From Bacteroidota bacterium (GTDB taxonomy: Bacteria; Bacteroidota; Ignavibacteria; Kapaibacteriales; NICIL-2), in NCBI GenBank assembly GCA_019695345.1, contig JAIBAE010000007.1, forward strand, positions 1 to 64,000: 64,000 nucleotides of DNA. The letters are read 5' to 3'. Positions within the stretch are counted from its first letter, which is position 1. Each line of letters begins with the position of its first letter. Positions 13,766 to 62,173 of this stretch are shown piece after piece. A model generated the notes under the pieces. It ran no database searches. It was not told the origin of the DNA and saw nothing but the letters and a program-made list of their open reading frames with translations. A program made the translations under genes and the position numbers.

Positions 13766-13932
13766 GGTAGTAATTGCTACGGTGTAAAATAATGCGCCTG
13801 ACACACAACAACAGAGACAAAATTCAGATGAAATTCGGCAAAACCGCAAAAACATCTAAGGAAAGACGACCAAAAGTGATAAATAAAAATAAATTTTTAA
13901 TAGTTAGTAGTATTAATCCATTCGGAGGTAGT

Positions 13933-21120: not shown

Positions 21121-21153
21121 CACTGAGGGGAGGTTTCACACCTCCCCTAAGTG
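21121..21153 (+). terminator. intercistronic hairpin without T tract
   Basis: CACTGAGGGGAGG (21121-21133) pairs with CCTCCCCTAAGTG (21141-21153) around a 7-base loop. No T run follows, so it may act as an attenuator, RNA-processing or stability element between the giant gene and the next T9SS gene rather than a strong terminator. Confidence 0.55.
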
Positions 21154-21207
21154 AACATGATTTTTGAAAGCAAAATTTATAAATTAAAAAGCAAAGGGTA
21201 TTTTGCC

Positions 21208-31348: not shown

Positions 31349-33385
31349 TTATTCCGTTGCTATTCTGATAACCACCGCACGATTCATAGAACGTCCCATA
31401 GGTGTAGTGTTAGTATGAATACCGCTTGGCTTTAAAGATATAACAACTTGTTCTGTTGATAAGCCGATGAGTCGCATTGCTTCGCGGGCACGTGCTTGTG
31501 CAAGTGTGGTGTTGTGTTCATCGGTACCAAGGTTGTCAGTTAAAGCAATCAATTCTACTTTCCTGCCTTTGGCAACATACTCACGAATCTGCGGAAAGAC
31601 TTCCGAGTTAATTTGATAAAACGTTGGTTTATCAAAATCGCAGAATCCAACAATCCATTCTGAAACATCGCCATTATCGGTATTCACAATGTTGTGAAGT
31701 GTTGAAACAATGTTACGTTTAGGTTGAACGGTAAATTGTATGCGTGAATCTTTTTGGTTCCCTGCCCCATCGCTTACGTTAAGTGTTAACCCGATTTGCT
31801 GCGTGTGCATAGCTCCTAAAGATTCAGGTGAAAGCTTGATGTAGTTTTCTTCGTTGGCATGTGTTGTTGTTGTATTTCCATTGGTGGCAATGGATAGTGT
31901 TGCATTTATAATTGTAGTGTCGGATTTATACGACGTGTGCACCCGGATATCGGAGGGGGGAACAACATTTGAAACGGTATCGTACTTGATAGTTGATATT
32001 GGTACGTTGCGCTTGCCGGTATTGGAAAGCGAGAGTGTTACACTGCGCATTTCTTCGAGTAATTCGGGATAACGAGAAACTGCACTTGGTGCTTTGATAG
32101 TTGTTGTAACGTGAATGCGCTGCGCAGTAATACCTGATGAGCGAAGTTGTGATGCCATCGCTTCTGCGCGTTGAGTGGCTATGGTTGGTGGTTCATCGGT
32201 TGCGGCACTACCAAGGATATTAATGTGTAGAGTAGTGTCGGATAAACATTGTTGTACAACTGCATCGAGTAGAGATTGTTGCTCAGGATTGAATTGTGAA
32301 GTGTTGTTAGAATAAAACACTTTTGGAACCAACACTGAAGTAAATACGTGCTGAGTTGAAGGAACATCAACAAGTAGTGTTTCGTGGTTGTTAATGGCTA
32401 CGTTATTATACACCGCTCTAAACACCGTAATTGAAAGTTGCTTAGGTTTAACCACAACCACCGGCGGTGTTGGCGGCGGCGGAGGAGGTGGTGGCGGTGC
32501 TACAATGGGAGATGATTTCCGCAATTGATATTGAGCTGAAATACCTGCACGAAGAACCGATGCTTTCCATTGTAATGATGAGACAAGGTTTGTTATACCA
32601 TAGGTGTAACTCACTTCTGGGGAAAGGGTGAGGGATTCCGTTTGATATACATCGTAACGGGCTGCAAGGTTGATACCGGCGTATAATCCCGCAGACTCCG
32701 GAATACTGCCTGATACTTCGTTTCGGGTTGTTGTCCCCGTCTCAAACACAGCATTAGAAGGAGTTAGAAGTGTTTCTTTCTGTGAGTAGGATGCGCCAAG
32801 AAAAGTTCCCGCTTCTATACCAAGTGAGATACCTAAAGGCAATGAAGTTGGTTGTATGTAAATGTAAGGTTCAGCAGAAAGTAACGAGAAGGAAGCATCC
32901 AGCAAATGTTCTGATGTTCCCTTTTGTACTGTGTTACCAACAATGATGTTAGCAAAGAAGTTAGTTTCTTTTAATGGTGCACCAATGGAACTGAAGCGGA
33001 TAATTCCACCAAGGCGGTAGTTCATACCAAGCAATGGTTTCTTAGGAAGATACTCAGCACCTGCTCCAAGTGTTAGGCCAAATCCCGTTCCGCCGGTAAA
33101 CTCTACACAACAATTTGGAATGCCGGGTAATTGTGAAAACGATGATGAGTGAAAGTTACCGTTTCCGGAAATGTTAGCAATGAGTCTCCAAGGCAGTAGG
33201 GTTGTATCTTGGGCAGATAATGTACTACATGATACAATGGTGAGTAGCAGGATAATCCACGATAACCGTTGTGATAGTAGTTGAGATTCTCTTCCGCAGA
33301 TGGAGTTGGTTTGTTGCTCTCCGTTTGGTGCGGTTTGCGAAGCAGATGATAATTTCACTTGTTGTAAATCTGGTTGTGTTTTCAT
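31349..33385 (-). CDS. outer-membrane protein with two OmpA-like domains
   Basis: About 678 residues. After an odd N-terminus, a hydrophobic segment with a lipobox-like end (IILLLTIVSCSTLSAQD) lies at about 45-61. A beta-barrel-like region (about 65-295) follows, then a poly-Pro linker (PPPPPPPPPTPP), an OmpA-like region (about 330-440: VFYSNNTSQFNPEQQSLLD), an Ig-like part (TLNVSDGAGNQ) and a second OmpA-like domain at the end (LIALTDNLGTDEHNTTLAQ). OmpA domains bind peptidoglycan, so it likely ties the surface complex to the wall. The ATG at 33385 is 1 base after the stop of the upstream T9SS gene, implying coupling; an ATG at 33424 is the alternative. Residues about 13-44 are encoded by an R1 repeat. 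Confidence 0.75.
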   Translation of the reverse strand: MKTQPDLQQVKLSSASQTAPNGEQQTNSICGRESQLLSQRLSWIILLLTIVSCSTLSAQDTTLLPWRLIANISGNGNFHSSSFSQLPGIPNCCVEFTGGTGFGLTLGAGAEYLPKKPLLGMNYRLGGIIRFSSIGAPLKETNFFANIIVGNTVQKGTSEHLLDASFSLLSAEPYIYIQPTSLPLGISLGIEAGTFLGASYSQKETLLTPSNAVFETGTTTRNEVSGSIPESAGLYAGINLAARYDVYQTESLTLSPEVSYTYGITNLVSSLQWKASVLRAGISAQYQLRKSSPIVAPPPPPPPPPTPPVVVVKPKQLSITVFRAVYNNVAINNHETLLVDVPSTQHVFTSVLVPKVFYSNNTSQFNPEQQSLLDAVVQQCLSDTTLHINILGSAATDEPPTIATQRAEAMASQLRSSGITAQRIHVTTTIKAPSAVSRYPELLEEMRSVTLSLSNTGKRNVPISTIKYDTVSNVVPPSDIRVHTSYKSDTTIINATLSIATNGNTTTTHANEENYIKLSPESLGAMHTQQIGLTLNVSDGAGNQKDSRIQFTVQPKRNIVSTLHNIVNTDNGDVSEWIVGFCDFDKPTFYQINSEVFPQIREYVAKGRKVELIALTDNLGTDEHNTTLAQARAREAMRLIGLSTEQVVISLKPSGIHTNTTPMGRSMNRAVVIRIATE
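33254..33350 (-). repeat. R1 repeat copy inside the coding region
   Basis: Minus strand: TCTGCTTCGCAAACCGC, ACCAAACGG, CATCTGCGGAAGAGAATC and CAACGGTTATCGTGGA, the same order and spacing as the intergenic copy at 921. It is read through in frame, supplying the residues just before the hydrophobic segment of the OmpA-like protein. Confidence 0.65.
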
Positions 33386-33386
33386 G

Positions 33387-36300
33387 TTAACGAACCACCA
33401 CAAGTAGTGATGAGACAGTAGCATCGGGTGAACGAAGATTGAGTGTGTATGTACCGCTTGGAAGTTGTGCTATAGTAAGTATCTGTGTTGAACTTCCTGA
33501 TGTAAGATGTAATGGTTGTTGCAAAGCAACTTCGCCGGTTGATGTAACAATGGTACAGAGTACATCGCGGGTGGAATCGCTGTACACAGTTAGTTCTGCA
33601 TTGCCGTTTGCTACAGGATTTGGTGTAATACGTTCCAGTGCAAGTTGAGCAAGTTGCTGAACACGCCTATCGCCACATAAGTTGATAAGTTGAAATGTTC
33701 CATCGGTTGTGGTAACTGTTGTAGCCTTACTCCAGAAGAGGGATTGTTTATTGAACTCAATGGGCGATACATCGATTTCTGCTAACCCGGCAACGCCGGT
33801 AATGTTTGCTACTGTACCTTGGTTTGGAAAGTTACCTTCAACTGAAAACTCAATGAGTCGCTTATCCCCTACTATTTCATTCCGTAAAAGCTTTCCTGTT
33901 CCGTACTGGCTTGTTACTTCTTGCGGCAGGAAGATACGCGGGTTAATGAAAATTTGTGATGTAAATGTTCTGATGCCATTATAGGAAAATTGTTCTTTAG
34001 TATTAAACTTCACCGGAATTGTTGCGTTACCTTTTGGGTCAGCTTCAACGCGCTCTATATATACAGTTCCTGTTGCAGTATATAAACGAATTGGAATTGA
34101 AAGTGGCGTAGCACATGGCTCTAATATTCCAACCATTTGTGCAGAAGTTGAATCGGTGTTATTCCATGTGATTGTTACCGGAAGTGAATCGTTCGCATTG
34201 ATAACACGTGGTGTAGTAATGTTCTGCATAGTAAAGCCATTGGCAGGTGTAATACCAAGCGATGTAAGTGTTATAGGATTATTGTTTTTGTTACGGATGT
34301 AAATGGTGCGTGTAGTTTGCTCCGGTATAAACGTGAGTGGGTTTGCCGTTGCTTCTGTTTCGGCACCCGAACCACGCCCGCGTAAAATTACTTTAGAGTA
34401 GATTTTTCGTTGACCGCCATAATAAATGTAAAGCTCGTTTAATGCAACTCCTAAATCTCGCGGAGTAAATACAATGTGCATTTTTACTTCGCCGTTTTGT
34501 TGTAGTGTATCGTTAGCAATTGACGTTGTAGTAGAGAACCACCGATTGCTTGGAGCATAGATAGAAGTTTGGTCGACAACCAGCATTGCGGGGTCGTTGT
34601 TGCGAAGAACTACAAGGTCTTTCTCAATACTTTGCCCAATACAGATGTCGCCAACATCAATGGTATCGGGAACGGTTAGAGAGCGAGGAATTGAATATCC
34701 TTCAATGGGCACATTATATGTTGTGTTACATGTGAATGTGTTGAAGATATCTTTGATAGTTCCGGTATCAAGCGGGTTGAACGAAATAGGGATTGAAAGA
34801 CATTCGCCCGGTTGTAAGGTATCGGGGATTGTAGCACCCGAGATACGGAACGACGTATTCCCATTTAACCAATCTCCCCCCAATGGAACGGGAAGTATTC
34901 CTTTGTTACACATATTTAGCGTAAACACCGTGTCGCTTTGAGTAAACGCATAGGTTGGTTTCATTACTGCTTTGGTGATTTGTATTGTAGGGCGAACTAT
35001 AGAAAACTCTGCATCGGATATATCGGACTCCGGAAAGATGAACTTCTTAACTTTAAGGTTATCCGGTGAGTTTGCAGATGAACCAACTGTAAGCCCGTCG
35101 TTACTGAATTTTAAATCGGTAAGTGCACCTTGATGTGAAGTAAGTGCGCCATATACCTGATTGGGAGATATATCCCATAACGGTGCCTGTGGTTGACCTG
35201 TATAGCCAAACACAACATAGCGCGAGGTTGCATTAGTAGTAACACCAATAGGAGTGCTTGATGCTTTGCGTTGTGAGCGTATAACTTCTTGGGTAGATAT
35301 GTTGATAATATGTTGCTCGGAGAAGGAGCCTTCTGTTAAACTCCCTGCCGATACTCTGCACCCAACGGCAATATTGTTGTTATCGGGTAATAAAATACAT
35401 TGTTCAATAAGAGGTAAACCGGGAATTGATACGAACGATTGAATAGTCCAATCGGGCAACGAGTACACAATGATTCTACCATCCATAAGTGTGGCAACAG
35501 CTTTATATTTCCCTAATCCAACCGACGTGATAACCGATGGTGCTTGAATTGTTTGTAGTAAAGAGCCATCGGCAGTTGAGTGAAGAGCAATGGTAGTACC
35601 CAACTGTGGTATCAGCGCAATAAATGTTCCCGATGAATCATACAATGCTGCTTTGTATCGTGTTGTGCTATCTAATGCAATAGTAGCTGTTGGCAACTTA
35701 GAATTAGCGGTAAAAAATGCTAAAGTATCTGCAACAGCTTTAGAGTACGTTGAGCGATATGCAACAAAAAACGACGATGCAGATGTGTAGTTAATACCAA
35801 ACGCTGTTGCATTTGATTTGTTTAGCGTATCGGTGCGAATACCCCATTTATACAGCTGTGCTCCGTTCTCAACATCCCATTCAATAATTTCGCCATTACG
35901 ATATGCCCCAAGGATTCGTTTGCCATCGGGAGAAAATGCAAATTTATCTACGGAGGTTTTGTTCGTGCCGGAAAGCAGTAGTTCTTGTGTATTTGTGTTT
36001 ACCTGGCTTACTCTGATTTTCATAGACGAAGCGGGAATATCCGGCACCGTCCATTTACACGTGCTATCTGCTGTTACCGTTATTAACTCCCATTTGGCTC
36101 CGTTATCAGTAGAATACTCTACAATGCTTTCGCCGCCGGTTGTTGTACCGGTCCAGGTAATAGTTGTTTGTTGGCAAGGAGCAAACTGCTCACCGCCATT
36201 AGGGTAGGTAACATTAAGAATTGTTTTAGCAGGTAGCTCAAAAATATTGCCGTACAGCTTTATACGTTCTACAGCACCACCTTCGTAGTACACAGTCAGA

Positions 36301-36992
36301 ACATCACTGTAGTATTTATTCTCTTTTGGTGAAAATGTAATTTCTATTGGATAGCCAAGCGGAGAGTATGCATAACCGGGAAGTTTGTAGGTACCATTCC
36401 CACCTTTCCAAACTGCCTTAAAAAACGGTGTTTGTGTAGCAATAGAATCAACAACAACCGGTAGTTCGTTCCCATCTTTACTTATGCGGCCCGTAATGGC
36501 AAAACACTGAACAGACTGAACGGAATCACGTCCGGCAGGAACATTGCCGCAATAGTATTCATTAATACGTACGGCGCGCCCATCTCTAAAGCGCATTTGT
36601 GGGTTTCCTTTAGCTAACCCCGTTGCTTGCGATGTGGAAATACTTGCTGTGTAATTACCGTTAAACGCAACAAGTGTTGCAGAAACACCCTCCGAAGTTC
36701 TGTTGCGGGTATACCATGTTATAGTTTGGGTACCGTCGCCTTCGGGTGGCGAAACAGACACAGGCACAGACGTTAGTACATCCTCTATTATAATAACGGA
36801 TGATGTACTTAGTGCAAACGGTGATTTATTAAGAGTAGCTTTAACACGGGCAGTAAGTTTTGGGTATGCCGAGCCGTTTAGCGTGTTCCCTCCGGAAAAC
36901 GATAACGTTAGTTGCGCAAACCCCGAAACCGTGCACAATAGCAGGAATCCAACCGAAACAATAATAGTTCTAAGTAAAGAATATATATGCAC
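33387..36992 (-). CDS. secreted WD40-like/choice-of-anchor protein with T9SS sorting domain
   Basis: A 1201-residue protein. The signal peptide is MHIYSLLRTIIVSVGFLLLC to GFAQ. An N-terminal beta domain (30-250) and an Ig-like module (VTYPNGGEQFAPCQQTTITW, about 255-340) precede a WD40-like propeller region (about 345-680: FAFSPDGKRILGAYRNGEII). Choice-of-anchor-D-type modules follow (about 690-1060: PGECLSIPISFNPLDTGTI), then a T9SS type A domain at about 1112-1201 (ITPNPVANGNAEL, PSGTYTLNL). The ATG at 36992 fits the signal peptide. The ompA-like gene begins 1 base after its stop, so the two proteins are probably made together and may form a surface complex. Confidence 0.82.
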   Translation of the reverse strand: MHIYSLLRTIIVSVGFLLLCTVSGFAQLTLSFSGGNTLNGSAYPKLTARVKATLNKSPFALSTSSVIIIEDVLTSVPVSVSPPEGDGTQTITWYTRNRTSEGVSATLVAFNGNYTASISTSQATGLAKGNPQMRFRDGRAVRINEYYCGNVPAGRDSVQSVQCFAITGRISKDGNELPVVVDSIATQTPFFKAVWKGGNGTYKLPGYAYSPLGYPIEITFSPKENKYYSDVLTVYYEGGAVERIKLYGNIFELPAKTILNVTYPNGGEQFAPCQQTTITWTGTTTGGESIVEYSTDNGAKWELITVTADSTCKWTVPDIPASSMKIRVSQVNTNTQELLLSGTNKTSVDKFAFSPDGKRILGAYRNGEIIEWDVENGAQLYKWGIRTDTLNKSNATAFGINYTSASSFFVAYRSTYSKAVADTLAFFTANSKLPTATIALDSTTRYKAALYDSSGTFIALIPQLGTTIALHSTADGSLLQTIQAPSVITSVGLGKYKAVATLMDGRIIVYSLPDWTIQSFVSIPGLPLIEQCILLPDNNNIAVGCRVSAGSLTEGSFSEQHIINISTQEVIRSQRKASSTPIGVTTNATSRYVVFGYTGQPQAPLWDISPNQVYGALTSHQGALTDLKFSNDGLTVGSSANSPDNLKVKKFIFPESDISDAEFSIVRPTIQITKAVMKPTYAFTQSDTVFTLNMCNKGILPVPLGGDWLNGNTSFRISGATIPDTLQPGECLSIPISFNPLDTGTIKDIFNTFTCNTTYNVPIEGYSIPRSLTVPDTIDVGDICIGQSIEKDLVVLRNNDPAMLVVDQTSIYAPSNRWFSTTTSIANDTLQQNGEVKMHIVFTPRDLGVALNELYIYYGGQRKIYSKVILRGRGSGAETEATANPLTFIPEQTTRTIYIRNKNNNPITLTSLGITPANGFTMQNITTPRVINANDSLPVTITWNNTDSTSAQMVGILEPCATPLSIPIRLYTATGTVYIERVEADPKGNATIPVKFNTKEQFSYNGIRTFTSQIFINPRIFLPQEVTSQYGTGKLLRNEIVGDKRLIEFSVEGNFPNQGTVANITGVAGLAEIDVSPIEFNKQSLFWSKATTVTTTDGTFQLINLCGDRRVQQLAQLALERITPNPVANGNAELTVYSDSTRDVLCTIVTSTGEVALQQPLHLTSGSSTQILTIAQLPSGTYTLNLRSPDATVSSLLVVVR

Positions 36993-49508: not shown

Positions 49509-51515
49509 TTATCTTTTTGGTGTGTAGCGAATAGTTAGTGGTATGCTTTCCACTCCCGTTGAAGTAAAAGCACGAATGTAATACGTTTGTTCTTTGGTTG
49601 TATCGGATAATTTGTCGGTGTGTTGTGTAACTGTTTTTTTTGTTTCCTTAATAGACACTTGCTTTCCGTTATATTCAATCCAAACACTGTAACCGGAAAC
49701 ATCAGTTGAGGGTGTTGGCTTCCAGCTAAGTATAATATTCCCGTTCTTTTCGGTAGCATTACCTTGTTCGGGGGGTGCAATTATTGAGCTTAGAATGGTA
49801 GCACTTCTCTCGCCGGAATGTGTGCTTTCGTTACCGGTGCTATCGGTTGCTGTTACCGAGTACCAATACTCTCCGGCGGATAATTCCTTATCGGTAAATG
49901 TTGTTGTGGTTGTTTTATAAATTGCTTTTGTATCATTTTTAGTTCGCCGATATACAACGAATTCCTTTAAATCAGGTTCGGTGCTTTTTGTCCAGTTTAT
50001 TGTTGCAGAATTTTTACTTTGTTGAAACGATGTTATGACGGGAACCGTTGGCGGAGTTTTATCGGGTAAACGAACAAATAATTTTTCGGACGGCAGAGAA
50101 CGATTGTACGAAATATCCTCTGCGTATATCTGATATGCCACGGTATATGGTGCATCAGGCGGAAGTGAATCGGTAAAGATAGTAGCTTTGATAGGTGATG
50201 CAGTTAACTGAAATGGAATAGAAAATTCCTTATCGCTTAAACGTGTTATAATATAGCCGGCAATATCCTGTTCTTTGTTTGGTATCCAACTTAAAATTAC
50301 TTTGTTTTTATCGGTTTTGTACGTTAGCTTTTGCGGCTGAGCGGGTGGAATGTTGTCCTTTAAAGTTATTGTTTCTTCTGCGCTGTATCCGCTTGTGGTA
50401 TCGTTACTCACCGCCCTGACGGAATACGTGTATGCACCCGATGTAACAGTATTATCAATCCAAGATGTCTTTTTTCCGTTTCCTGCCGGTACTGTTTCGG
50501 TTGTAGTTACCTTCTTAAAATCAGTTCTGCGGACTTCATAATATCGTACGTATGCATCGGCCCTTGGCAATGTCCACTCAACCAACACAGCATTGCCTAT
50601 TTGCTGTAACGTAAGTTGAACAGGTGCTCCAACTATACTGCCGGGTGTTGCTTGCAGGGTAATACTTGGTTTACTTTCCACACCGGCTACATTGATATTG
50701 GTAACATAATAAAAATAGGTAGTACCATTTTGCAAATACTCATCGGAAAACGTGCGTTGTTGTTCGTTGCCTGTAAACCGGAAAGGCACTAATGGTAAAG
50801 CATTGATTCTGATAAACGGACCCAACGGTTGTTCAGAGCGATATATATTATTTGATACAGCAACACCCTGTTGTTCGTATTCATTATTACCTTGCCATGT
50901 TATAGTACACGAAGCATCGCCGGATGAAATGTTGCAATCGGTAGGAACTGGTACAACTTCGGGTTTATCAGTTGATACTATACGCGATGTTCCAATGATT
51001 TTTTCGTTACTGCCTTCAAGAACAACAATGGTATAGCGATACTGTTCACCTTTGGTAAACGTTGAATCGGTAATTGCTTCTCCTAACACACGTGCAAATT
51101 CCGGTGTTGTAGCGCTAAGAGCGTTAAATAGGTTCAACGATGTTTTGTTTGTAAATACCCGCTCGTAATCTGTGGCTGTAATGTCTTTACCATTGGTTCT
51201 AAACATTCCTAAATATGCATCCGTTTTTGTTCCTGCAATTTTTGTTATATCCGAAACCAATGATGTACGTGTTGTTGTTGCGATACTTGCTTTATTGCCA
51301 AACCTGCCTGTAGTTCTGTACACGATATATTTTGGGTCGGATATGCTTCGCTCACCACGCCAGCGAACATGTATACTCTTTCCATCAAAATGCACAAATA
51401 CATCATCAGTTTGCCCAAGTATTGTAGCAGGCATCAACACTACTACAATAAACAGCAGAATCTTTCTTGCTGCATTCATCGCCGGTGTAACGGTCTTTTC
51501 AAGAATACCAATCAT
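49509..51515 (-). CDS. secreted fibronectin type III protein of the TANFOR cluster
   Basis: A 668-residue protein. The N-terminus MIGILEKTVTPAMNAARKIL leads into a hydrophobic signal ending PATILGQ (about 35). An N-terminal domain (36-200) is followed by about five FN3-like domains to the end, recognisable by their W-x-x-N/P...Y...Y-x-V-x-A pattern (SWIPNKEQDIAGYIITRL, NWTKSTEPDLKEFVVYRR, SWKPTPSTDVSGYSVWIE). It has no T9SS sorting domain: the chain ends in the last FN3 strand (IRYTPKR). A strong GAAGGAGA ribosome site precedes the ATG at 51515. It is the third gene after the barrel and giant genes and is probably a surface or periplasmic partner of the giant protein. Confidence 0.78.
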   Translation of the reverse strand: MIGILEKTVTPAMNAARKILLFIVVVLMPATILGQTDDVFVHFDGKSIHVRWRGERSISDPKYIVYRTTGRFGNKASIATTTRTSLVSDITKIAGTKTDAYLGMFRTNGKDITATDYERVFTNKTSLNLFNALSATTPEFARVLGEAITDSTFTKGEQYRYTIVVLEGSNEKIIGTSRIVSTDKPEVVPVPTDCNISSGDASCTITWQGNNEYEQQGVAVSNNIYRSEQPLGPFIRINALPLVPFRFTGNEQQRTFSDEYLQNGTTYFYYVTNINVAGVESKPSITLQATPGSIVGAPVQLTLQQIGNAVLVEWTLPRADAYVRYYEVRRTDFKKVTTTETVPAGNGKKTSWIDNTVTSGAYTYSVRAVSNDTTSGYSAEETITLKDNIPPAQPQKLTYKTDKNKVILSWIPNKEQDIAGYIITRLSDKEFSIPFQLTASPIKATIFTDSLPPDAPYTVAYQIYAEDISYNRSLPSEKLFVRLPDKTPPTVPVITSFQQSKNSATINWTKSTEPDLKEFVVYRRTKNDTKAIYKTTTTTFTDKELSAGEYWYSVTATDSTGNESTHSGERSATILSSIIAPPEQGNATEKNGNIILSWKPTPSTDVSGYSVWIEYNGKQVSIKETKKTVTQHTDKLSDTTKEQTYYIRAFTSTGVESIPLTIRYTPKR

Positions 51516-51548
51516 ACTTTCTCCTTCAACGGAAGTATATATCTATAG

Positions 51549-51754
51549 TTTTGCTAACGCCGGACGGCACCAAACAACCTGCACATAAACCCTACTGCGT
51601 GCCGGAAGTATCGTTCTGCAACTCCTAACAACAACCTGAACGATGTACTACAATCACGAACACACAGATGTTGCCCGTTGTACATTCTGTCTCCCGCAAG
51701 GCAATGCGATGCAGTTTATGTAAGGTTCGGTGCGGTCATGCGACAGCAACAAAG
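51549..51754. repeat. R1 repeat, complete inverted pair in the TANFOR operon
   Basis: Plus half: TTTTGCTAACGCCGGACGGC, ACTGCGTGCCGGAAG. Minus half: TTTGTTGCTGTCGC, ATGACCGCACCG, CTTGCGGGAGACAGAATG. It fills most of the gap between the giant and FN3 genes, starting 14 bases after the giant gene's stop, so it would be a large hairpin in a shared transcript. Confidence 0.65.
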
Positions 51755-51767
51755 TCACGTACTTATG

Positions 51768-54700
51768 TTACGACGAATATCCAACATCAATATCAAGGGC
51801 ATCGCTATACCCAAACACCGAATAACTAACATGAACACCCGCTGTTATTTTTACCGAGTACGGCGTTGCTTCCAAATCGGCGGCAACTTTTGCGCTACCG
51901 GTTAGTAATGTGCTCATGCCGTAAATCGGGAAGTCGCCTTTTACATCAACCGACCCTTTGAATTCAACCTTTGTTTTCAGTTTTGAGGTTGATGTGTAAT
52001 ATGCAATCGTTCCGCCTGCATAGGCATGAAGCGAAACATAGAAGTCAACAACACCAAGCGGAATCTTTTTATCGAAATCGTAACGGAGTGTACCATCAAC
52101 ATACAAAGAGTCTTGTGTTACACTTACTTTACCTTCTGCTTTTATTACTTGCAAAGCCGAGCCGCTGAGTGTTTTACTGCGTATGTATTTTTCGGACTCA
52201 CTGTATTTGAATTCCATATTACCATCAAACGATAATATTTTTCCCTTGGCATCGGGCACGCCAATAAACAACCGTACAAAACCGGAAAGCGAAGCCGGTT
52301 CGGTTGATAGTGTGAGTTTTCCTTCGCCAAACAAAGCGTCCTTTTTATTAAGTAACCAGATCTTTCCATAGATAGTAAATTCCGTCCAGGGAATTAGTAC
52401 CATTTCTACACGACTATTCATAAGAGAACCTGTAGAAGGTGTACCGATACCAACTATTGCCTTAAACGCTAGAGAGTTTGGTAATTCTTTTGGGTTACCA
52501 CTTTGCGTTCCAACAGGTGGCTCGTAATTATAACCAATACCTCCGCCAAGTTCTGTAATAAACAACGTTGTTTGCCCAAGCGGAATTGCAACCTTGGCAG
52601 TTAGCTCGCCATACCAATAGGTAAATGATTTTGTCTCGTCAACTTTTTGAACACCTGCAATCAGTTTGCCTGTAATGCCTCCTGTGCAAAGGTTCTTTAA
52701 TCCAATATCAAAATCACCACGGAATTCTGTTTCGGAGAATGCAAAGCCACCGCTAAAACTGCACGGACCATAATCAAATTTTATTGAAGTTTCATCAAGC
52801 GATACTTTTACACTTGGTCCGGTTGTAAGTTCAACACCACCTTTTAAGGCAATGATATTAGGAATTGAGAATGTACCTTTAACTGTGATGCTTAAATCTT
52901 TATCTTCTTCTTTCTTGATAGTAAGTTTTGATATAGCAAGGTCGAACCCTCTGCCGAACTTAATATTGGGTTCGGTAATGCTTACTTCCCCTACAATTTT
53001 TCCGGTGTTATCCAGAGTAAGATTTTTAATATCAAGCCGCTTGAAATATTCACATGTTGCCGTAGCGTTAATGGAAAGTGTAGCAAGTGATGTTTCAGGT
53101 TTATAGCTGATGGAGGTTCCATCTAACAGCGAAAAGACAGTTTTGATTTTAGGAACCGATACAGGATGTGCCGTTGAAATGGTTCCGCTCCATTCTTCTT
53201 TCGAGCCGCTAAGTTCAAAATCTATATCTCCCTCAAACGGAATAGGCATATGTATAGCGCCACTAAGCTTTCCTTCTTTCAGTTCGCTATTAGCAAAACT
53301 GAATTCCAGCGATGAAAAGTCACACTTCCAACCACCAAAACCCATTTTGAAAAACTTACCGCTTACTTTAACAGTACCGCCTATTGCAACTTCACCTGCT
53401 TTGTACTTTCTGCCAATAGCAAAGCTTTCTACACTCAATTCGGAGTTTGTTGTATCCTTGCCATCGGTTGTAGAAAACGTTTTGGGCAGAATTAACTCTG
53501 CTTTATTAATAACAATACCAACAAACGGTTTTAATTCATCGGCAATTTCATCTTCGTCGCGGGTTTCATGCATATCTAACGTAAACGACGAGCCTTTTTT
53601 AAGAGTACACTTTGCAAACTTTACTTCCGGCAAATCGCTTACAGTACCAAAGAAGTTACCGCTTGTTTCCAACTCCGCATGAAATCCTGCACCATCAGGA
53701 AGATACTTCTGGTGCGTTATCCCTCCGCCAATCATTGCACCTGCGGACGCTGTAATGGAAAGTGAATCAACCCGAAATGTAAAACCTTTATACTCAACTT
53801 TTTTGCCTTCTCCGGGTTTCCAGGAAACAAACCCTTGCTTGGCAATCATTGCATCGCCTTCCCCCTCCAGATAAACACCATTTACAGCTAAGGGTATATC
53901 AATAAACGATTGCAAGAATTCATGGAGATTTTCAACAATCAATTTTCCATTACCATAAACTGTCTCGCCCGATGAAGCAGGTTCATCCAACTCAACAATA
54001 AATGGCATAGAAGCAGAGCCAATTTTAAACCGCTTATCTTTACCCGATTTTTTTCCTTCAACGTCTTTTGGAACAGATAGCTTTTGTAATGCTGCTTCAG
54101 CACATTGTGCTTTAATCCAAACTTCTTCTTTTGGATCCTTAGGTAAACTTGATACAAGAGTACGGGCTATACCAAACAATTCTGTTGCAACTTTAGGTGG
54201 AGTGTACGTTACAGGTTTCTTGTTCTTGGGGTTTTTCAAGTACTCAATCATAATATCATTGGCAGGTTCCCTTTCATTATCAGTTACACCAACAATTGCA
54301 TGTGTTCTCTTTGCATAATTTTCGTCCTTATCAGCATCCTCATTTTTTTCGGGCATTGATTTGGAAGCAGCTTCTAACGATAACGCACCTTCCCACACTT
54401 TTTTCCCTGCTTCAACGGCAGCGTTTGGCGGTGAGTCGGCAAATTTCAGGAACTGTAAATACAGTGGCATAGTTGCAAGCAATGTATCTTTATAGCAACG
54501 TTCACGTTTCCATTCTACCGTCATATCAAATTCAGCAAACCCACTACCAAATAAAAACGGAATATGTATATATCCGTCGCCATCGGTTTGCTTTACAACT
54601 TTAAGTTGATTTGGTTTCTCTAGTCCATAATCTTTCGTCAACTTTGCATACTCAGGTTTTATAGTAACAATAACTTCAACATCCTCACCTGCAAGCCCTT

Positions 54701-57700
54701 TATGGTCACCACAAACAACTCGTGCAACAACAGTGTCGGTTGTGTTCGGAGCGCCAATAAGTTTCTTTGTTACTTCAATCATTACACCTGCCTTAACTTC
54801 CGGTAACATTTTTTTATCCACGGGAACATCAGTGGCAATGGGTGTATCTTTATAGGTAACGGTATGTATCACCGTCTTTTTGCATTTTGGTTTCGGAACT
54901 TCGCCTGCCTTCCAGGCAACTTGTTGGTTATTCATTCCCAATACCAAGCCACCATCCAAAGCCCAGGAATACGTAATCAAGTCTATTATGGAACTACCGT
55001 TAGCCGCTTCGGCACAGTTTTTTGCTTTGGCAGGCCCGCATACTCTTCTGCTAATATCTGCATCCGATGCCGATGAAGTTAAAAATGTATAATCACGTGC
55101 AAGTATTGGTTCATCTTCCGGTATTACAGCCCATTCTTTCCAAAGTGGCTCACCATTTTTATACATCAACGCAATAGTACGTGGTTCCTTGCGTAATACC
55201 GATGGGTCAGTTCCAACAAGTGGTGGTTGAGGTAAAAACGTATTCTCAATCGGACATTCTCCTTGGTGTACATCAGTGCCAAGTCCACCCGCAGGTTCTG
55301 TATTAGCAAAGACGGGGATACGTCCGGAATAAGAAATTTCTTTTACCTCAACCTGTGGTCCATCTTTTGCCCGCCATCCGTCGGTAACAGTATCAGTAGC
55401 CGTAATAGTTAGTTTATCCTTCAGGTTTGGATTAGAAAATATATCGAACAGAAAGTCATGAAGTTCTTTTTTGGCTTTAGCAAGATTATCGCGCGATTGT
55501 TTTAAAGAATCCTGTGCAGCTTTAATGGAAGAATCGCGTTCTGCCAAAGCACTTGTTACATTGGCTTCACATTCCTTCATAATTGCCTCACCCGTCTTCT
55601 TTGCCTTTTCGGTTTCTTCAATTGTCTTAGCAATTTCTTTGGCATCATCTAAACTATCTAAACCCTCGTTAATCTTTTCATTTAATTCAGCGCGTTCTGT
55701 TTGCTTGTCGTCAACAGTTTCTTTTGCTTCCTGCAATCTGTCTTTTGCAGCATCCAACCTTGGTGCAATATCTTTTTCCAATCGCTTATTCAACTCATTC
55801 AACTCATCAATTGCAGCAATACGTGCCTGACTTTTAGCGGAAAATTCCTTTCGGGCATCTTCATATTCTTTTGTGGCAGCGGTAACTCTATCGGTAGCAG
55901 CTTTAACACTAGCTGCCACGCTTGCAACATCACTTTCCAAAGAAGCAACTTTAGTTTTGGCAAGTTTTTCTTCTGCATCTGCCACTTGTACTTTACTGCG
56001 CGCCGTAGCAGCAGCAGTCTGATTATTTGCAGCAATAGCGTGGTTCAATTCGCTTTGTGCTTGTCCGGTTGCTCCATGTTTCTCTTTTAACTCTGCACGT
56101 GCTTTTTCTAGGTCGGCAGTACGCTCTGCAAGAGTTTGTTTTGCCTTTGCCTCAAGGTCTTTTTCTTTATCAATTCCTGCTTTTAACTCTAATACTTTTT
56201 TACCAGCAGCAGTAGCTTCTTCCTTGGCGGTTTCAACATTTTTTTCCTGTGCTTCTATATCTGTTTTCAGCTTATCAACTTTATCCTGATACATCTTCAC
56301 TTTTTCTTCTTGTTTCTTTACTTCCTCTTCTGCATCCTTAACTGCTTGTTGAGTTTTTAACTGTTCGTCTGCCTGTTGCTTCTTACCATCGTTTTTAACA
56401 TGAGATAGTTCACGTTTAAGGGAATCAATTTCTTCTGTTCCAGACGCGACCGCACCGCTTGCATCATGATAGCGCATAGTCTCGCGTAGAGTACGTTCCA
56501 GCAACAATGTAAGCTTTTTCTGGACGGCCTGTTTTTTGGCTAATGCTATTACCACACCGGCTTCTGCTTTTGCAACGGAATCTTTTAGTTCATCAAATCG
56601 TTTCTTCTGTGCATCATCCATTAATACTTCTATTGGCGGAGGTACATAGTACACCAATTCCCCATCGGCAATTTTATTTCCGGTCAACGCTACATCTTTA
56701 TCCCGTTTCTTATCGGCAAGCTTTTTCTTTAGCTCATCAAATTCTTTATTAGCATCATCAATCTGTTTCTGAAGAGCATCTATAATTTTATTTGCATCAA
56801 TCTTTAAAACATCTTCAAGTGATGTTTTTTGTGCAATAAGTTTATTCTTCTCGTCAGTAAGACGTATTACTTCCTTATTAGCTATTAATACTCTGGCTTT
56901 CTCTGTTGCAATACTATCGCTTAATACAACCAACGAATCCTGTAGGAGCCGAACAGTACTGTCAATCCCTCGCTTCTTATCGGCTAGTGTTCCACGTTCT
57001 CGCAATAACGAAACACGAATCTTATCCAGAGCTTCTATTCGTTTAGTCTCAAGAACTTTTAATTCTGCTTGCAATGCCGAAAGTTTATCCGATTCTTTCT
57101 CAAACAACTTTGCAGATGCATCTGCTTTGGAAACATACAAGGCAAGTTCTGTTTTGTTTGCTTCAACGGCGGAAGAATATGCCAGTGCTTTCTTCTTCAA
57201 TTCACTCTCAGCCGAAGCAAGAGCCGATTCTCTTGCCCCAATCTTTGCTCTTGCACTTGCAATCTTACTCTTTAATAACTTATCTAACGTAAATGGTGTA
57301 GCAAGCAGTGAGACATGATTACTCATAAACACCGATTGTGCCGAACTCACAATATCAAGTGCCGCGGAACATGCTGCACGTTTATCTGCGTTGCTCTTGC
57401 CTGTACATTCTGCCGCCATTGCCAAACCAAGCGCAGTAAGCCGTGTAGTAAATAATGTTCCTAATGCTGTGCGTGTTGCACCAACAGGAGTTGCTAAAGC
57501 AGAATCAGCTATATCATTCACGGCTTTTACCTCTGCCGATAACGTGGTATTGCCGGCTGCCTGCGTTGCAATCCAAATGGTAGCTTTGTCGGTAAAGTCT
57601 CGTTGCGATTTAAAAAACTCCCTTGGTGCACCAGCCGGATACAACGATGTTTGAAATGCACCTACACTCTTGGCATCACCCGAACTTGCAGAGCGCAACG

Positions 57701-60203
57701 ATTCGTACGCTACTTGTGCAGCTTTGTATTCGGCAAGTAACGTTTTAAGTGTAGCAGCTAATTCTGCAGTTTTATCCGTTAGTTTTTTTACATCAGCATC
57801 GCGTGCCTTTTGTGCAGACTCCATGGTTTTTTGCTGTGTAGCAATCTCCTTTAACTTTGCAAGTTCCTCAGGAGATTGTTTCCCTTGCAGTATCACATCA
57901 ATCGAATCAATTTCTTTTTTTACTGCACTGCTTTCTTTTTTCTTGTCGGCAATGGTTTCTTGTACCTTGCCAAACAAAGTTTCATTTTTTTCTATTTGCT
58001 TCTTTTCATTTTCAACAGATGTTGTATACTCTTTTAACTTTTTACCAACCGAGTCAAGTTGCGCCTTAATAACCTCCAACTGTCGTTCTGCAACATTCTT
58101 TTGTTGCTCAAGTTTTTTCGGAATCTCTTTTTTAATCGTCTCTAAAGAATCTATTTTGCTTTGTACTTCAGCAATTTGCTGCAATAACTTTTCAATTTCT
58201 TTTTCGATATCATTGGCAAGTTTTATAGACGGCATAGTGTTTAAAGTACCTTTGCCTTCTAATACCCAAGAATATGTTATTCCATCCTGAACTGGTATTT
58301 TTTTCTGACTTATTGCACCTTCTTTACACGGGGTACACTGTAGTATTCCATAATCCATATCAATTGCAGAAGCACGAATAGGTAATGCACGGGGGTAGGG
58401 GAACTCGGCAGGTGCATCAATTTTAGAGCCCAATGAAACAGGCGTTGCCTTCTCCGATTGTAATTCCGGTGGTGGGCACTTATCCGGTAAACTATCGCTC
58501 GGACAATACACTTCAAAGTTGCCGCCAAATGGGCACTTTGTTCCATCGGAACAAATTACATTTCCGCTTAAAGTTATAGAATACCACCCGGGCTTAATAC
58601 AACGAACCTCAACCATCTCGCCTTTGGGGTCGCCAATCATTTCCGCAGCACCATCACCACTTCCAAAACTCCAAGAATACTTAATGGTATGTGTACACGC
58701 CGGAACAGTGCCTTTACATGGAGTGTTCTTACAGCCACCCTCCACTTTTGCTTTGTAGGTGGTATTTCCTCTTGCAGATTTTCCAGTTTCAATATCAGAC
58801 TTTACCCAACACGAGCATTTACATTCTTCCCTTGTTGTGGTGGTGGGCGGTCGCTCGGTTGTAGTAGTTGTTCCACCACCAGTAGTAGTTGTTCCGCCAT
58901 CGGTTGTTGTTGTGGTACCAGCTGATTTATTAACTTTCACTGTTTTTGTAGTAGTTACACTTCCGCACGAGGCTGTACCACAAAACATTTCACCCGTATA
59001 AGTTGCTGTAATAGTTCCTGATGAAGGTGGTGAAACAGTAGCACCAATTCCACTTCCACTTGGAAGGGGTGATGTATTTCCTTTTTCGTCGGTAAAAGTT
59101 ATTGTCCATTTCCCTTTAATGGATGGCATACACGGCATAATGCAGTTCATTCTGAATCGTATCCAAAATGAAACCGATGATGAATAGGTAACGGTAGTAC
59201 CTGTATTGCCTTCAGGTAAAAAGAACGGTCCGCCAATATACTCTTTACTCGCATCGTTATCTGCTTCATATCCAATCCCAACTAACTCACCTTTACAAAA
59301 ACACGAAGTGGTTGTGTCGCGTGTACGTGTACCGGTTGGTGAACATGTAACAGTGAATGTGTTTGGTTCCGACCATCCGTCGTTATCGGTAATTAACTGG
59401 CCGCCAATACCTGTTGTTCGTACCGACCACACATAGGTGCGTGTTTGTGTTTTTGTACTCGTGGTGCTATTCTGTGGCTGAAACACCGTTACGTCAAAAT
59501 CGGGTGGAAACACAAGCTGTGTTGTGTTGTATACATCCTGTTCTATAATTGGATGATTAGCACGAAATGCATTCATGGGTGTTTGTCCGGGCAATACTTC
59601 GCATAACACAAAATGATACATTGTTCCAAAGGTATACGTAGGTGTTAACGAGCCCCACCGGAAAATCAAGGTAGGTACTTGCTGACATGTTGTTGTAAAG
59701 TTCTGAACAGGTTGTAACAGATACGGAAGTTGATAACTAATTATCTCGAAGTTCCTACATACGGGTTGGCTTATTGGTTGTCCGGTTTCTGCCTGTAACA
59801 ACTGAACACACAACTGATATTGAGATGAAGGCAGTTTCCCTGTTCTGACTGCAACGTTTTTATCATCGCCAAAAAACGACATTGCTTGCAGTACTACTAC
59901 CTGTTCAGCATTTACCATCATGGTTCCACGCGGAACAGTAAGAATCGGCATTTTAGTGTAATCGGAAGATGCCTTTAGTTGTCCGTCGCGTAGTATCTGC
60001 ACACCAAGCCGAACCTGCGCAGGATTTTGCCCGGGGTTCAGAATGTTAAGCATAATTGTTTCTGTGCGTTCTTGCCAGTCCGAAAGATACGGAGACGGGC
60101 GCGGGTTCATGTTCAGGTTCAGCTGCAGCGGCTGCCCGAAAACAAACAGCGTGTTTGCAAATGCAAGCAAACTGTACAGAATTTTTTTCGATATGTTCTT
60201 CAT
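51768..60203 (-). CDS. giant secreted TANFOR-like protein with coiled coil and beta-rich C-terminus
   Basis: A 2811-residue protein. The signal peptide is at 1-23 (…NTLFVFGQ). The N-terminal region (about 24-290; NPRPSPYLSDWQERTE, RVQ-type strands) resembles the TANFOR domain of Bacteroidota giants. Cys-rich and PKD/Ig-like modules (about 300-640) include a Thr/Gly linker at about 426-451. A continuous coiled coil (about 658-1594) is rich in Lys, Glu, Ala and Asp. Ig-like modules (about 1640-2050) precede a repetitive beta region (about 2060-2811) of short alternating G/F/S strands. There is no membrane anchor and no T9SS domain; it ends DIDVGYSS. AAGGCGAG precedes the ATG. Function unknown: a fibre, stalk or envelope-spanning bridge is possible. 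Confidence 0.75.
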   Translation of the reverse strand: MKNISKKILYSLLAFANTLFVFGQPLQLNLNMNPRPSPYLSDWQERTETIMLNILNPGQNPAQVRLGVQILRDGQLKASSDYTKMPILTVPRGTMMVNAEQVVVLQAMSFFGDDKNVAVRTGKLPSSQYQLCVQLLQAETGQPISQPVCRNFEIISYQLPYLLQPVQNFTTTCQQVPTLIFRWGSLTPTYTFGTMYHFVLCEVLPGQTPMNAFRANHPIIEQDVYNTTQLVFPPDFDVTVFQPQNSTTSTKTQTRTYVWSVRTTGIGGQLITDNDGWSEPNTFTVTCSPTGTRTRDTTTSCFCKGELVGIGYEADNDASKEYIGGPFFLPEGNTGTTVTYSSSVSFWIRFRMNCIMPCMPSIKGKWTITFTDEKGNTSPLPSGSGIGATVSPPSSGTITATYTGEMFCGTASCGSVTTTKTVKVNKSAGTTTTTDGGTTTTGGGTTTTTERPPTTTTREECKCSCWVKSDIETGKSARGNTTYKAKVEGGCKNTPCKGTVPACTHTIKYSWSFGSGDGAAEMIGDPKGEMVEVRCIKPGWYSITLSGNVICSDGTKCPFGGNFEVYCPSDSLPDKCPPPELQSEKATPVSLGSKIDAPAEFPYPRALPIRASAIDMDYGILQCTPCKEGAISQKKIPVQDGITYSWVLEGKGTLNTMPSIKLANDIEKEIEKLLQQIAEVQSKIDSLETIKKEIPKKLEQQKNVAERQLEVIKAQLDSVGKKLKEYTTSVENEKKQIEKNETLFGKVQETIADKKKESSAVKKEIDSIDVILQGKQSPEELAKLKEIATQQKTMESAQKARDADVKKLTDKTAELAATLKTLLAEYKAAQVAYESLRSASSGDAKSVGAFQTSLYPAGAPREFFKSQRDFTDKATIWIATQAAGNTTLSAEVKAVNDIADSALATPVGATRTALGTLFTTRLTALGLAMAAECTGKSNADKRAACSAALDIVSSAQSVFMSNHVSLLATPFTLDKLLKSKIASARAKIGARESALASAESELKKKALAYSSAVEANKTELALYVSKADASAKLFEKESDKLSALQAELKVLETKRIEALDKIRVSLLRERGTLADKKRGIDSTVRLLQDSLVVLSDSIATEKARVLIANKEVIRLTDEKNKLIAQKTSLEDVLKIDANKIIDALQKQIDDANKEFDELKKKLADKKRDKDVALTGNKIADGELVYYVPPPIEVLMDDAQKKRFDELKDSVAKAEAGVVIALAKKQAVQKKLTLLLERTLRETMRYHDASGAVASGTEEIDSLKRELSHVKNDGKKQQADEQLKTQQAVKDAEEEVKKQEEKVKMYQDKVDKLKTDIEAQEKNVETAKEEATAAGKKVLELKAGIDKEKDLEAKAKQTLAERTADLEKARAELKEKHGATGQAQSELNHAIAANNQTAAATARSKVQVADAEEKLAKTKVASLESDVASVAASVKAATDRVTAATKEYEDARKEFSAKSQARIAAIDELNELNKRLEKDIAPRLDAAKDRLQEAKETVDDKQTERAELNEKINEGLDSLDDAKEIAKTIEETEKAKKTGEAIMKECEANVTSALAERDSSIKAAQDSLKQSRDNLAKAKKELHDFLFDIFSNPNLKDKLTITATDTVTDGWRAKDGPQVEVKEISYSGRIPVFANTEPAGGLGTDVHQGECPIENTFLPQPPLVGTDPSVLRKEPRTIALMYKNGEPLWKEWAVIPEDEPILARDYTFLTSSASDADISRRVCGPAKAKNCAEAANGSSIIDLITYSWALDGGLVLGMNNQQVAWKAGEVPKPKCKKTVIHTVTYKDTPIATDVPVDKKMLPEVKAGVMIEVTKKLIGAPNTTDTVVARVVCGDHKGLAGEDVEVIVTIKPEYAKLTKDYGLEKPNQLKVVKQTDGDGYIHIPFLFGSGFAEFDMTVEWKRERCYKDTLLATMPLYLQFLKFADSPPNAAVEAGKKVWEGALSLEAASKSMPEKNEDADKDENYAKRTHAIVGVTDNEREPANDIMIEYLKNPKNKKPVTYTPPKVATELFGIARTLVSSLPKDPKEEVWIKAQCAEAALQKLSVPKDVEGKKSGKDKRFKIGSASMPFIVELDEPASSGETVYGNGKLIVENLHEFLQSFIDIPLAVNGVYLEGEGDAMIAKQGFVSWKPGEGKKVEYKGFTFRVDSLSITASAGAMIGGGITHQKYLPDGAGFHAELETSGNFFGTVSDLPEVKFAKCTLKKGSSFTLDMHETRDEDEIADELKPFVGIVINKAELILPKTFSTTDGKDTTNSELSVESFAIGRKYKAGEVAIGGTVKVSGKFFKMGFGGWKCDFSSLEFSFANSELKEGKLSGAIHMPIPFEGDIDFELSGSKEEWSGTISTAHPVSVPKIKTVFSLLDGTSISYKPETSLATLSINATATCEYFKRLDIKNLTLDNTGKIVGEVSITEPNIKFGRGFDLAISKLTIKKEEDKDLSITVKGTFSIPNIIALKGGVELTTGPSVKVSLDETSIKFDYGPCSFSGGFAFSETEFRGDFDIGLKNLCTGGITGKLIAGVQKVDETKSFTYWYGELTAKVAIPLGQTTLFITELGGGIGYNYEPPVGTQSGNPKELPNSLAFKAIVGIGTPSTGSLMNSRVEMVLIPWTEFTIYGKIWLLNKKDALFGEGKLTLSTEPASLSGFVRLFIGVPDAKGKILSFDGNMEFKYSESEKYIRSKTLSGSALQVIKAEGKVSVTQDSLYVDGTLRYDFDKKIPLGVVDFYVSLHAYAGGTIAYYTSTSKLKTKVEFKGSVDVKGDFPIYGMSTLLTGSAKVAADLEATPYSVKITAGVHVSYSVFGYSDALDIDVGYSS

Positions 60204-60245
60204 AACTCGCCTTTACAAAAACGTATTGTTATGGTAACAAGGGAA

Positions 60246-60464
60246 TTGTTGCTATCGCCCGACGGTACCGCACTATGTCTGTATCACATCCTTATCATGC
60301 CGGAGAGTTCCTTTACTGTTCAACAAACTGTATCGTGATATGAATAAATTCTTGTGTATAAAACCAATATCCACGATGCACATTGTTACTTATGTGTTGT
60401 TCTGTTCTGCACGAGAGCTGCGTTGTAGTTACTCGGCGCATGGTGCAGTCATGCGTTAGCAACT
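60246..60464. repeat. R1 repeat, complete inverted pair in the TANFOR operon
   Basis: Plus half: TTGTTGCTATCGCCCGACGG, ATCATGCCGGAGAG, CTGTATCGTGATATG. Minus half: TAGTTGCTAACGC, ATGACTGCACCA, and a central TCGTG. It begins 3 bases after the barrel gene's stop and ends shortly before the giant gene. Confidence 0.65.
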
Positions 60465-60466
60465 AT

Positions 60467-62173
60467 TTAAAACCTTGTTGAAATCAATGCCTGAATTGTA
60501 CTCTCGGAATATGAACTGTTTGTACTGAATGAGAATGAATTAAGGGTTGCATTCAGCGAGAGCACAGTTGTGCCCGATATAGTATAACCACACGATACAC
60601 CAACAAGAAACTGAGTATTGGAACCCCCACCTGTAAAAGATGACGATGAGTACGTAAGCCGTAAACCCGGGCGTAGTTTAAGTGCAGCCAGGTTATACGA
60701 ACTACCCGCATTGGCCGAGAACGTAGTGTAGCCCCCAAACTTAAGCGAGTTACTTACATAACTTATACCTCCGTATCCGGTAAGCGGCATCGTTGAAAGT
60801 ACAACAGAGTAATTTGCAAAAGTGGAAAGTACACTGTTATCGGAAAGTGCACCGCTAATGACATTGTAATCGTCATAACTATCGTAGCCGGCTGTGAGCG
60901 TAACCGTTTGCATTCCAAACGAAGTTGAAAATGAATACATAGGTGATACCGAAATGGAACGTGATACGTTTTCTATACGTAATGTATCGTTACTTGCCGT
61001 GTTGCGTACGCCAAAATTTGAAAGTGTTGCTGCAACCGACCAATCGTTGCTCATTACCCATAAGCCATTTGCAGAAATGAGTAATTGAGATAGTGTTGCG
61101 GTTTGAGTTGATAGAACATTATTGATTCTGTATCCAACTGTACCCGAAATGTTAAGAAGATTATCGGTTGTTGTGAATGCAGGTTGTACGGTAAACTCAA
61201 TGCGGTCGGGTTGTAGGTACGGAAAACCGGGTGATGCAAACCCTTCGCCAATATACTTTGCACCTGTACGGAGCTTAACGGGTCCTAACAGAAATGCAAC
61301 ACCGGCTGTGGCAGCGTAGTCGAGCCGCGTTGAGTTACGAACGGTAATTGGCGAGAACGACGAGAAGTCTGACCCCTGATACAATTGCGCACGTAAACTT
61401 CTTGTTGTAAAGTTCGATGCAATCTCTGCATCGGCAATTATTGTACTATCTATATTGATTTTTGCTGCAACCGAACCAACAAACAACTCTTGTGGTGTAA
61501 CAGTGGTTAATTGGGTTTGTACGGATGAGGTATCATCAATAGCATGAACAACCTGAAACGATACTGTACTTCCGCCAGCGGATGATACTCCAAACTGTGC
61601 GCCTTTCATGGTACGTTGATACGCACCGGTTAAATTAAAACTTGTTATAGGAAACGTTGGTTCTATTGCACGCTGTGCCACACCATAAAATGCCGATGCC
61701 GTTAAACGCCCGGGTTTAAAATCTGCACCGAGCCCAAATATCTGTACATCGCCTGCTGTTAGCGAAGAGTACTGCGGGGTGTAGCTTCCCAAGTGTGCTT
61801 GCAGCGCTCCAATGCGCGGTTCGATTGCAATAATGTTGAGCGGGTTTTGTAAAAATTGCTCTAACGATTGGTTAACTGCAAATCCTGTACTTACGTTAGT
61901 TTGTTGTGAGCTTAGCATAAGTGTAACAGGTAGCTCGATGATACCATATTGTATATTACTTTGAGCAACAAGGCGGTATAGGTTTGCCGGACGGCGTGGT
62001 GCAAAGAACGGTGCAGGTTCGGTATTTAATGTGTAGTAGTCTGCACTGAGTGAGATGTTTCCGGAGATAATTGGCCGTAAGGATATATCCTGTGCATGTA
62101 ATGATACACAGGAAGAAAAATAATATGCAAACGACGCAAGAAGCAATGGTGCGAGGAGTAATGTTGTACGCAT
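60467..62173 (-). CDS. outer-membrane beta-barrel protein of the TANFOR cluster
   Basis: A 568-residue protein. The signal peptide MRTTLLLAPLLLASFAYYFS continues to VSLHAQ (about 28). The rest is amphipathic beta-strands (LSADYYTLN, GLGADFKPGRLTASAFYGVA, LRTGAKYIGEGF, VTLTAGYDSYDDY) and ends ALISTRF with the terminal Phe of outer-membrane barrels. There is no TonB plug or OmpA domain. It lies upstream of the giant and FN3 genes in one direction, separated by repeat pairs only, so it may be their exporter, anchor or docking port. That role is inference from context. The ATG at 62173 follows GGGGAAAGG. Confidence 0.75.
   Translation of the reverse strand: MRTTLLLAPLLLASFAYYFSSCVSLHAQDISLRPIISGNISLSADYYTLNTEPAPFFAPRRPANLYRLVAQSNIQYGIIELPVTLMLSSQQTNVSTGFAVNQSLEQFLQNPLNIIAIEPRIGALQAHLGSYTPQYSSLTAGDVQIFGLGADFKPGRLTASAFYGVAQRAIEPTFPITSFNLTGAYQRTMKGAQFGVSSAGGSTVSFQVVHAIDDTSSVQTQLTTVTPQELFVGSVAAKINIDSTIIADAEIASNFTTRSLRAQLYQGSDFSSFSPITVRNSTRLDYAATAGVAFLLGPVKLRTGAKYIGEGFASPGFPYLQPDRIEFTVQPAFTTTDNLLNISGTVGYRINNVLSTQTATLSQLLISANGLWVMSNDWSVAATLSNFGVRNTASNDTLRIENVSRSISVSPMYSFSTSFGMQTVTLTAGYDSYDDYNVISGALSDNSVLSTFANYSVVLSTMPLTGYGGISYVSNSLKFGGYTTFSANAGSSYNLAALKLRPGLRLTYSSSSFTGGGSNTQFLVGVSCGYTISGTTVLSLNATLNSFSFSTNSSYSESTIQALISTRF

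Follow-up and report, generated by a model that had tools for sequence, protein, structure and literature searches.

A large outer-membrane barrel encoded beside TANFOR proteins across Bacteroidota, a candidate exit or anchor at the cell surface

How proteins with an N-terminal TANFOR domain pass the outer membrane has been an open question since 2020, and the locus described here now names a specific partner gene. The locus lies in a window of 64,000 nucleotides, the whole stretch of DNA analysed (contig JAIBAE010000007.1, positions 1 to 64,000, of a Bacteroidota bacterium in the order Kapaibacteriales), and comprises three minus-strand genes encoding an outer-membrane β-barrel protein (60467..62173; 568 residues, C-terminal Phe, about 24–26 predicted strands), a TANFOR giant (51768..60203; 2811 residues), and an FN3 protein (49509..51515; 668 residues with several FN3 domains, PF00041, E 1.4e-12). 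Inspection of the sequence finds Sec-type signal peptides on all three (LHA/QD in the barrel, VFG/QP in the giant, and ILG/QT in the FN3 protein, the last counted from an internal Met). These genes and signal peptides agree with a preliminary description made from the letters of the window alone, which proposed a possible three-part surface apparatus with a dedicated route or a periplasm-spanning assembly. We find that the pairing of barrel and TANFOR protein is real and phylum-wide, with the FN3 protein as a third partner, and is apparently new to the literature. On balance, we lean towards the barrel being the dedicated outer-membrane partner, as exit and/or anchor, of TANFOR proteins.

Conservation of the cassette

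A search of 395 Bacteroidota genomes with separate profiles for the barrel and the TANFOR domain, in which all counts describe strong matches, returned, among the matches listed, 121 barrels in 89 genomes at E ≤ 1e-25. A TANFOR domain lies on the same strand within 10 kb for 98 of these 121 barrels and on the opposite strand for none, and accidental adjacency is rejected on this bias. Two further barrels (L104 and L105), confirmed by reading the loci, stand in the same cassette with a TANFOR gene more than 11 kb long. At the genome level, the barrel is present in 84 of the 87 genomes with listed TANFOR matches, and within the 61 genomes of the order the presence of barrel and TANFOR agrees in all except three (Fisher p 2e-9). 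In most of the 20-kb neighbourhoods read in relatives, the three genes adjoin one another, usually in the order barrel–TANFOR–FN3 and otherwise as TANFOR–FN3–barrel or TANFOR–barrel–FN3, with gaps usually near zero. When the FN3 family is searched alone, 42 of 61 strong matches lie downstream of a TANFOR domain encoded on the same strand, and many of the remaining matches lie near contig ends. The neighbourhood is thus conserved in relatives, and the three-part set suspected from one window is a real one.

The barrel family itself has no Pfam or NCBIfam match, either for the window barrel or for barrels across the phylum, which agrees with the earlier suggestion of an undescribed apparatus. 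In another Bacteroidota lineage, a 909-residue protein (L092:7515-10244) that represents a whole family matches the barrel profile weakly over positions 115–530 and adjoins a CHASE2-guanylate-cyclase gene; similar weak matches occur in many genomes with no TANFOR nearby.

In at least nine genomes, including that of the window, TANFOR and barrel form one polypeptide, in every case with TANFOR N-terminal and the barrel C-terminal. Specifically, uninterrupted fused open reading frames of 863–1016 residues, spread over several families, are found in G339, G223, G353, G256, G274, G190, G025 and G053, while contig 136 of the window's own genome (L098:5499-8108) encodes an 869-residue fusion with the second half of TANFOR. 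In G002 (L101) the same half-TANFOR fusion recurs, between genes of similar length. Because an outer-membrane barrel normally has its two termini in the periplasm, the TANFOR part of these fusions would sit either at the periplasmic face or inside the lumen.

The window's own genome (G000) carries more TANFOR genes on contigs 13, 15, 39, 136, 152 and 160 (L053, L091, L037, L098, L054 and L055), among them a second full cassette on contig 15, the fusion, TANFOR domains that stand alone (286 and 289 residues), and, close to an end of contig 160, a TANFOR–FN3 pair that lacks a barrel. In mirror trees built on 20 complete cassettes, the window cassette groups with members of G014, G030 and G054 in all three trees, and the contig 15 cassette groups first with G001 and G367, again in all three. 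Because both paralogous cassettes of one genome group alike throughout, the cassettes are taken to be inherited as units.

With intergenic gaps of 263 and 252 bp, and of approximately zero in most relatives, the window cassette is likely an operon. Each of its two spacers, barrel–giant (60249..60462, minus strand) and giant–FN3 (51551..51749, minus strand), is bracketed by an inverted pair of copies of a 21-bp repeat with the approximate sequence TTGCTAWCGC-NN-GACSGCACC. This intergenic repeat is dispersed over about 200 places genome-wide, and a count of its inner 13 bases with at most one mismatch gives 202, against 9 for a reversed control. Elsewhere, a TANFOR cassette on a contig titled Bradyrhizobiaceae (L095, JAGFIZ010000062.1) clusters with Kapaibacteria-type genomes, and the bin is probably mislabelled. 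In G030, the cassette's FN3 gene (C40:97430-98881; L039:13440-14903) is short, at 487 residues, and has one in-frame TAA within the profile match, so it may be truncated.

The giant and its two modules

The TIGR02542 model itself gives no match to the window giant. The profile of the giant's family aligns with TIGR02542-positive proteins over 252 columns (hhalign 99.9%, E 3.9e-37), and the TIGR02542 matches in the relatives G037, G003 and G010 fall inside the same N-terminal domain. This profile–profile alignment identifies the N-terminus of the giant as TANFOR, a likeness that the preliminary description had noticed. The domain spans residues 1–290 (59334..60203, minus strand), with cysteines 132 and 149 conserved in the family alignment. 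It is followed by a Cys-rich segment with Thr-rich linkers (residues ~290–640; 58284..59336, minus strand; 5.4% Cys), which includes a tandem repeat (58861-58913). Residues ~640–1600 (55404..58286, minus strand) contain 1.2% Pro and 35% charged residues, two stretches of 290 and 217 residues lack Pro altogether, and the only Pfam or NCBIfam models that match the giant are SMC-type coiled-coil models. On this composition and these matches, the region is taken as a coiled coil of about 950 residues, close to the 935 first estimated.

The β-rich C-terminal region (residues 1690–2811; 51771..55136, minus strand) is conserved, by alignment, in relatives of one C-terminal type, type A. Full-length relatives of the giant come from other genomes of the order and from RI_134, and a Candidatus Kapaibacterium bin, of the same order as the window's genome, is among the relatives found through the giant's C-terminus. 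Sorted by their C-termini, some 40 TANFOR proteins give about 20 groups that share no detectable similarity, one of them being a colicin-type DNase, and similarity between C-terminal types is weak at best (hhalign 88%, 39% and 1%). A DUF6603 match is confined to one type D relative (E 0.007), and DUF6603 has no mention in the literature searched. An AlphaFold2 model of the giant's C-terminal 1122 residues, made on six sequences, reached a predicted local distance difference test score (pLDDT) of 51.3 and gave Foldseek TM scores to the query of at most 0.13; its quality is too poor, and nothing about the fold is drawn from it. Another TANFOR protein beside a barrel (L043:6002-7776) terminates, where its contig ends, in an eCIS_core (DUF4157-like) stretch, which is just under the cut-off (PF13699, E 5e-4).

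The trees suggest how these parts belong together. Over the same 20 cassettes, the barrel and TANFOR trees are correlated (r = 0.84, Mantel p 1e-4), against 0.47 for barrel and FN3 and 0.36 for TANFOR and FN3. The FN3 tree departs from the other two: its clades correspond to the C-terminal types of the giants (A 7/7, D 3/3, and B 8/8, joined by G018, which has a C-terminus that also matches type B), and the TANFOR tree has no grouping by C-terminal type. The simplest reading of these trees is that the barrel pairs with the TANFOR domain and the FN3 protein with the C-terminal region, and that two modules have been exchanged against each other.

The barrel and the route across the outer membrane

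The AlphaFold2 model of the barrel (pLDDT 75.8, predicted TM score 0.64) has about 24–26 strands, counted from the listed strands. Its best solved fold match is MtrB (6r2q_B; Foldseek E 5e-12; Z 20.7, root-mean-square deviation 5.4, 471 residues aligned), followed by a runner-up with Z 17.9 over 296 aligned residues; pilus ushers come after MtrB in Foldseek, and a viral fold search of the barrel returned generic outer-membrane proteins only. No solved structure related by sequence to the barrel, TANFOR or the giant's C-terminus was found. The medium-confidence model suggests a large, MtrB-like barrel, a fold match that shows no function, and its lumen may have room for a domain.

In the mechanism that we propose, the TANFOR domain at the giant's N-terminus would dock, from the periplasm, on or in the wide barrel, which would either retain the giant in the outer membrane or pass it through. 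The coiled coil and the β-rich C-terminus would be displayed at or beyond the surface, with the FN3 protein acting as an accessory partner of the C-terminal region and not of the TANFOR domain. As a tentative extension, barrel and TANFOR might constitute a Bacteroidota export or display system independent of the type IX secretion system (T9SS), in which the wide barrel would recognise the N-terminal module, carry interchangeable C-terminal effectors, and keep or release them at the surface. The effectors would then be large β-rich proteins with an FN3 partner, or nucleases.

T9SS cargo is abundant in this genome. At least 150 of its proteins pass the cut-off for the type A C-terminal domain (CTD; TIGR04183), as do 6 of the ten other window proteins scanned; the preliminary description had counted eight in the window. 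In agreement with that description, CTD models have no match in the barrel, the giant or the FN3 protein, and a profile search of 39 TANFOR and 25 FN3 C-termini, taken from the window and from related loci, finds neither TIGR04183 nor TIGR04131. The translocon gene sprA is present in 107 of 107 TANFOR genomes, against 304 of 395 overall (Fisher p 4e-15, a value that ignores phylogeny). Because every TANFOR genome also has sprA, the dedicated route first proposed is not supported in that form and stays one of two readings.

The other reading, the main rival and one that we regard as possible if doubtful, makes TANFOR proteins T9SS cargo with a non-canonical signal: SprA would transport the giant, and the barrel would be a PorP/SprF-like shuttle or surface anchor that collects and holds it afterwards. 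The universal sprA would be expected here, and the main text of Jana, Salomon and Bosis (2020, PMC7073777) reports that more than 95% of TANFOR genomes have T9SS, hypothesises T9SS export, and finds FN3, SprB and CTD domains enriched near TANFOR genes; PorP/SprF barrels, too, pair with adjacent cargo genes (PMC12618676, PMC9143113). However, neither type of CTD, A or B, is present in any of the 39 TANFOR C-termini, and it is at the N-terminus, not the C-terminus, that these proteins are conserved. The barrel, moreover, does not match PorP/SprF, has about twice the length, and is predicted to have many more strands than PorP with its 14. A static conduit like MtrAB, in which the barrel permanently sheathes TANFOR and the giant serves not as a secreted effector but as a tether, within the periplasm or from periplasm to surface, would suit the best fold match (MtrB being a sheath around a periplasmic partner), the long coiled coil, and the natural fusions that keep TANFOR joined to the barrel. 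It is unlikely, since the C-terminal DNase domains of other TANFOR proteins, seen here and in the main text of PMC7073777, must leave the cell, and the fold match is uninformative on function and the giant carries no CxxCH haem motif. Many FN3 proteins occur in these genomes (as weak matches), and TANFOR and FN3 genes might share surface-protein islands with a functionally unrelated porin or transporter; this is very improbable given the strict same-strand bias (98:0) and its persistence across the phylum, the fusions, the near-identical distribution of barrel and TANFOR over genomes, and the concordant trees of two paralogous cassettes. Finally, the FN3 partner may conceivably be an immunity protein: its gene occupies the place of an immunity gene and tracks the C-terminal type of the giant. 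Its large size, its secretion and its several FN3 domains speak against this role.

Several points weigh against the barrel as the dedicated partner of TANFOR proteins. With sprA present throughout, transport may be the work of T9SS and the role of the barrel limited to anchoring. The mirror trees are support and not proof, because joint inheritance alone can raise their values, and some barrels and TANFOR genes stand alone, partly since contigs end. The window giant has no Pfam or NCBIfam match to a toxin domain, a toxin of unrecognised type being possible, and no small immunity gene is recognisable after it, the next gene encoding the secreted FN3 protein. The barrel model was built on five sequences, and the docking, the transport or anchoring, the topology and the role of the C-terminus are steps that we infer.

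If confirmed, the dedicated barrel would add a barrel family to the Bacteroidota secretion repertoire, provide a genomic marker for surface effectors that CTD-based prediction overlooks, and account for some of the FN3 and barrel proteins now without a named family. Elsewhere in the window, an OmpA-like peptidoglycan-binding protein (31349-33424) matches PorE weakly and lies beside an open reading frame of 1201 residues (33387-36992), and the T9SS CTD regions of the genes at 21151-23115 and 13774-21111 also match models of FlgD, the flagellar hook assembly protein (E 1e-9 and 2e-7).

Comparison with known secretion systems

Two-partner (type Vb) secretion resembles the cassette in that a barrel gene lies beside that of a giant exoprotein with an accompanying conserved N-terminal module. 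TpsB barrels have 16 strands, fewer than predicted for the TANFOR barrel, and there is no Pfam match to POTRA on the barrel or to a TPS domain on the exoprotein. The MtrAB and MtrCAB conduits, in which MtrB forms a 26-strand sheath around a partner entering from the periplasm (PMC7198977), are similar in the predicted fold of the barrel. They differ in that the giant has no CxxCH motif, the cassette has no electron-transfer genes, and the barrel has no sequence match to MtrB_PioB (PF11854; searches at E ≤ 0.1 and at E ≤ 1).

The preliminary description took TANFOR for merely a domain of unknown function, whereas the main text of PMC7073777 describes TANFOR proteins as polymorphic toxins and tests one TANFOR DNase domain with its immunity protein. 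The window giant shares with these toxins the N-terminal TANFOR domain, the signal peptide, an FN3 neighbour, a T9SS-bearing genome, and membership of a family with variable C-termini. It differs in having no recognisable toxin domain and in being followed by an FN3 gene instead of a small immunity gene; for some members described in that text, an immunity gene is lacking as well. In the open-access PubMed Central literature searched, the term 'TANFOR domain' occurs only in PMC7073777, and a barrel partner, a barrel fusion or a barrel–TANFOR–FN3 cassette is described neither in its main text nor elsewhere in that literature.

PorP/SprF barrels, which have 14 strands and about 33 kDa in the case of PorP, have their genes next to those of their cargo, which depends on them to be secreted or anchored (PMC12618676, PMC9143113). 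The TANFOR barrel is unrelated to them by profile (no PorP_SprF match in the window barrel at E ≤ 0.1 or in four phylum-wide barrels at E ≤ 1), is about twice as long at 568 residues, has about 24–26 predicted strands against 14, and is usually encoded upstream rather than downstream of its partner, whose conserved module is N-terminal and which lacks a CTD. In both cases, however, a cognate barrel is encoded beside a large secreted protein in a T9SS genome, and PorP/SprF with type B CTD cargo is the nearest functional analogy to the barrel–TANFOR pair.

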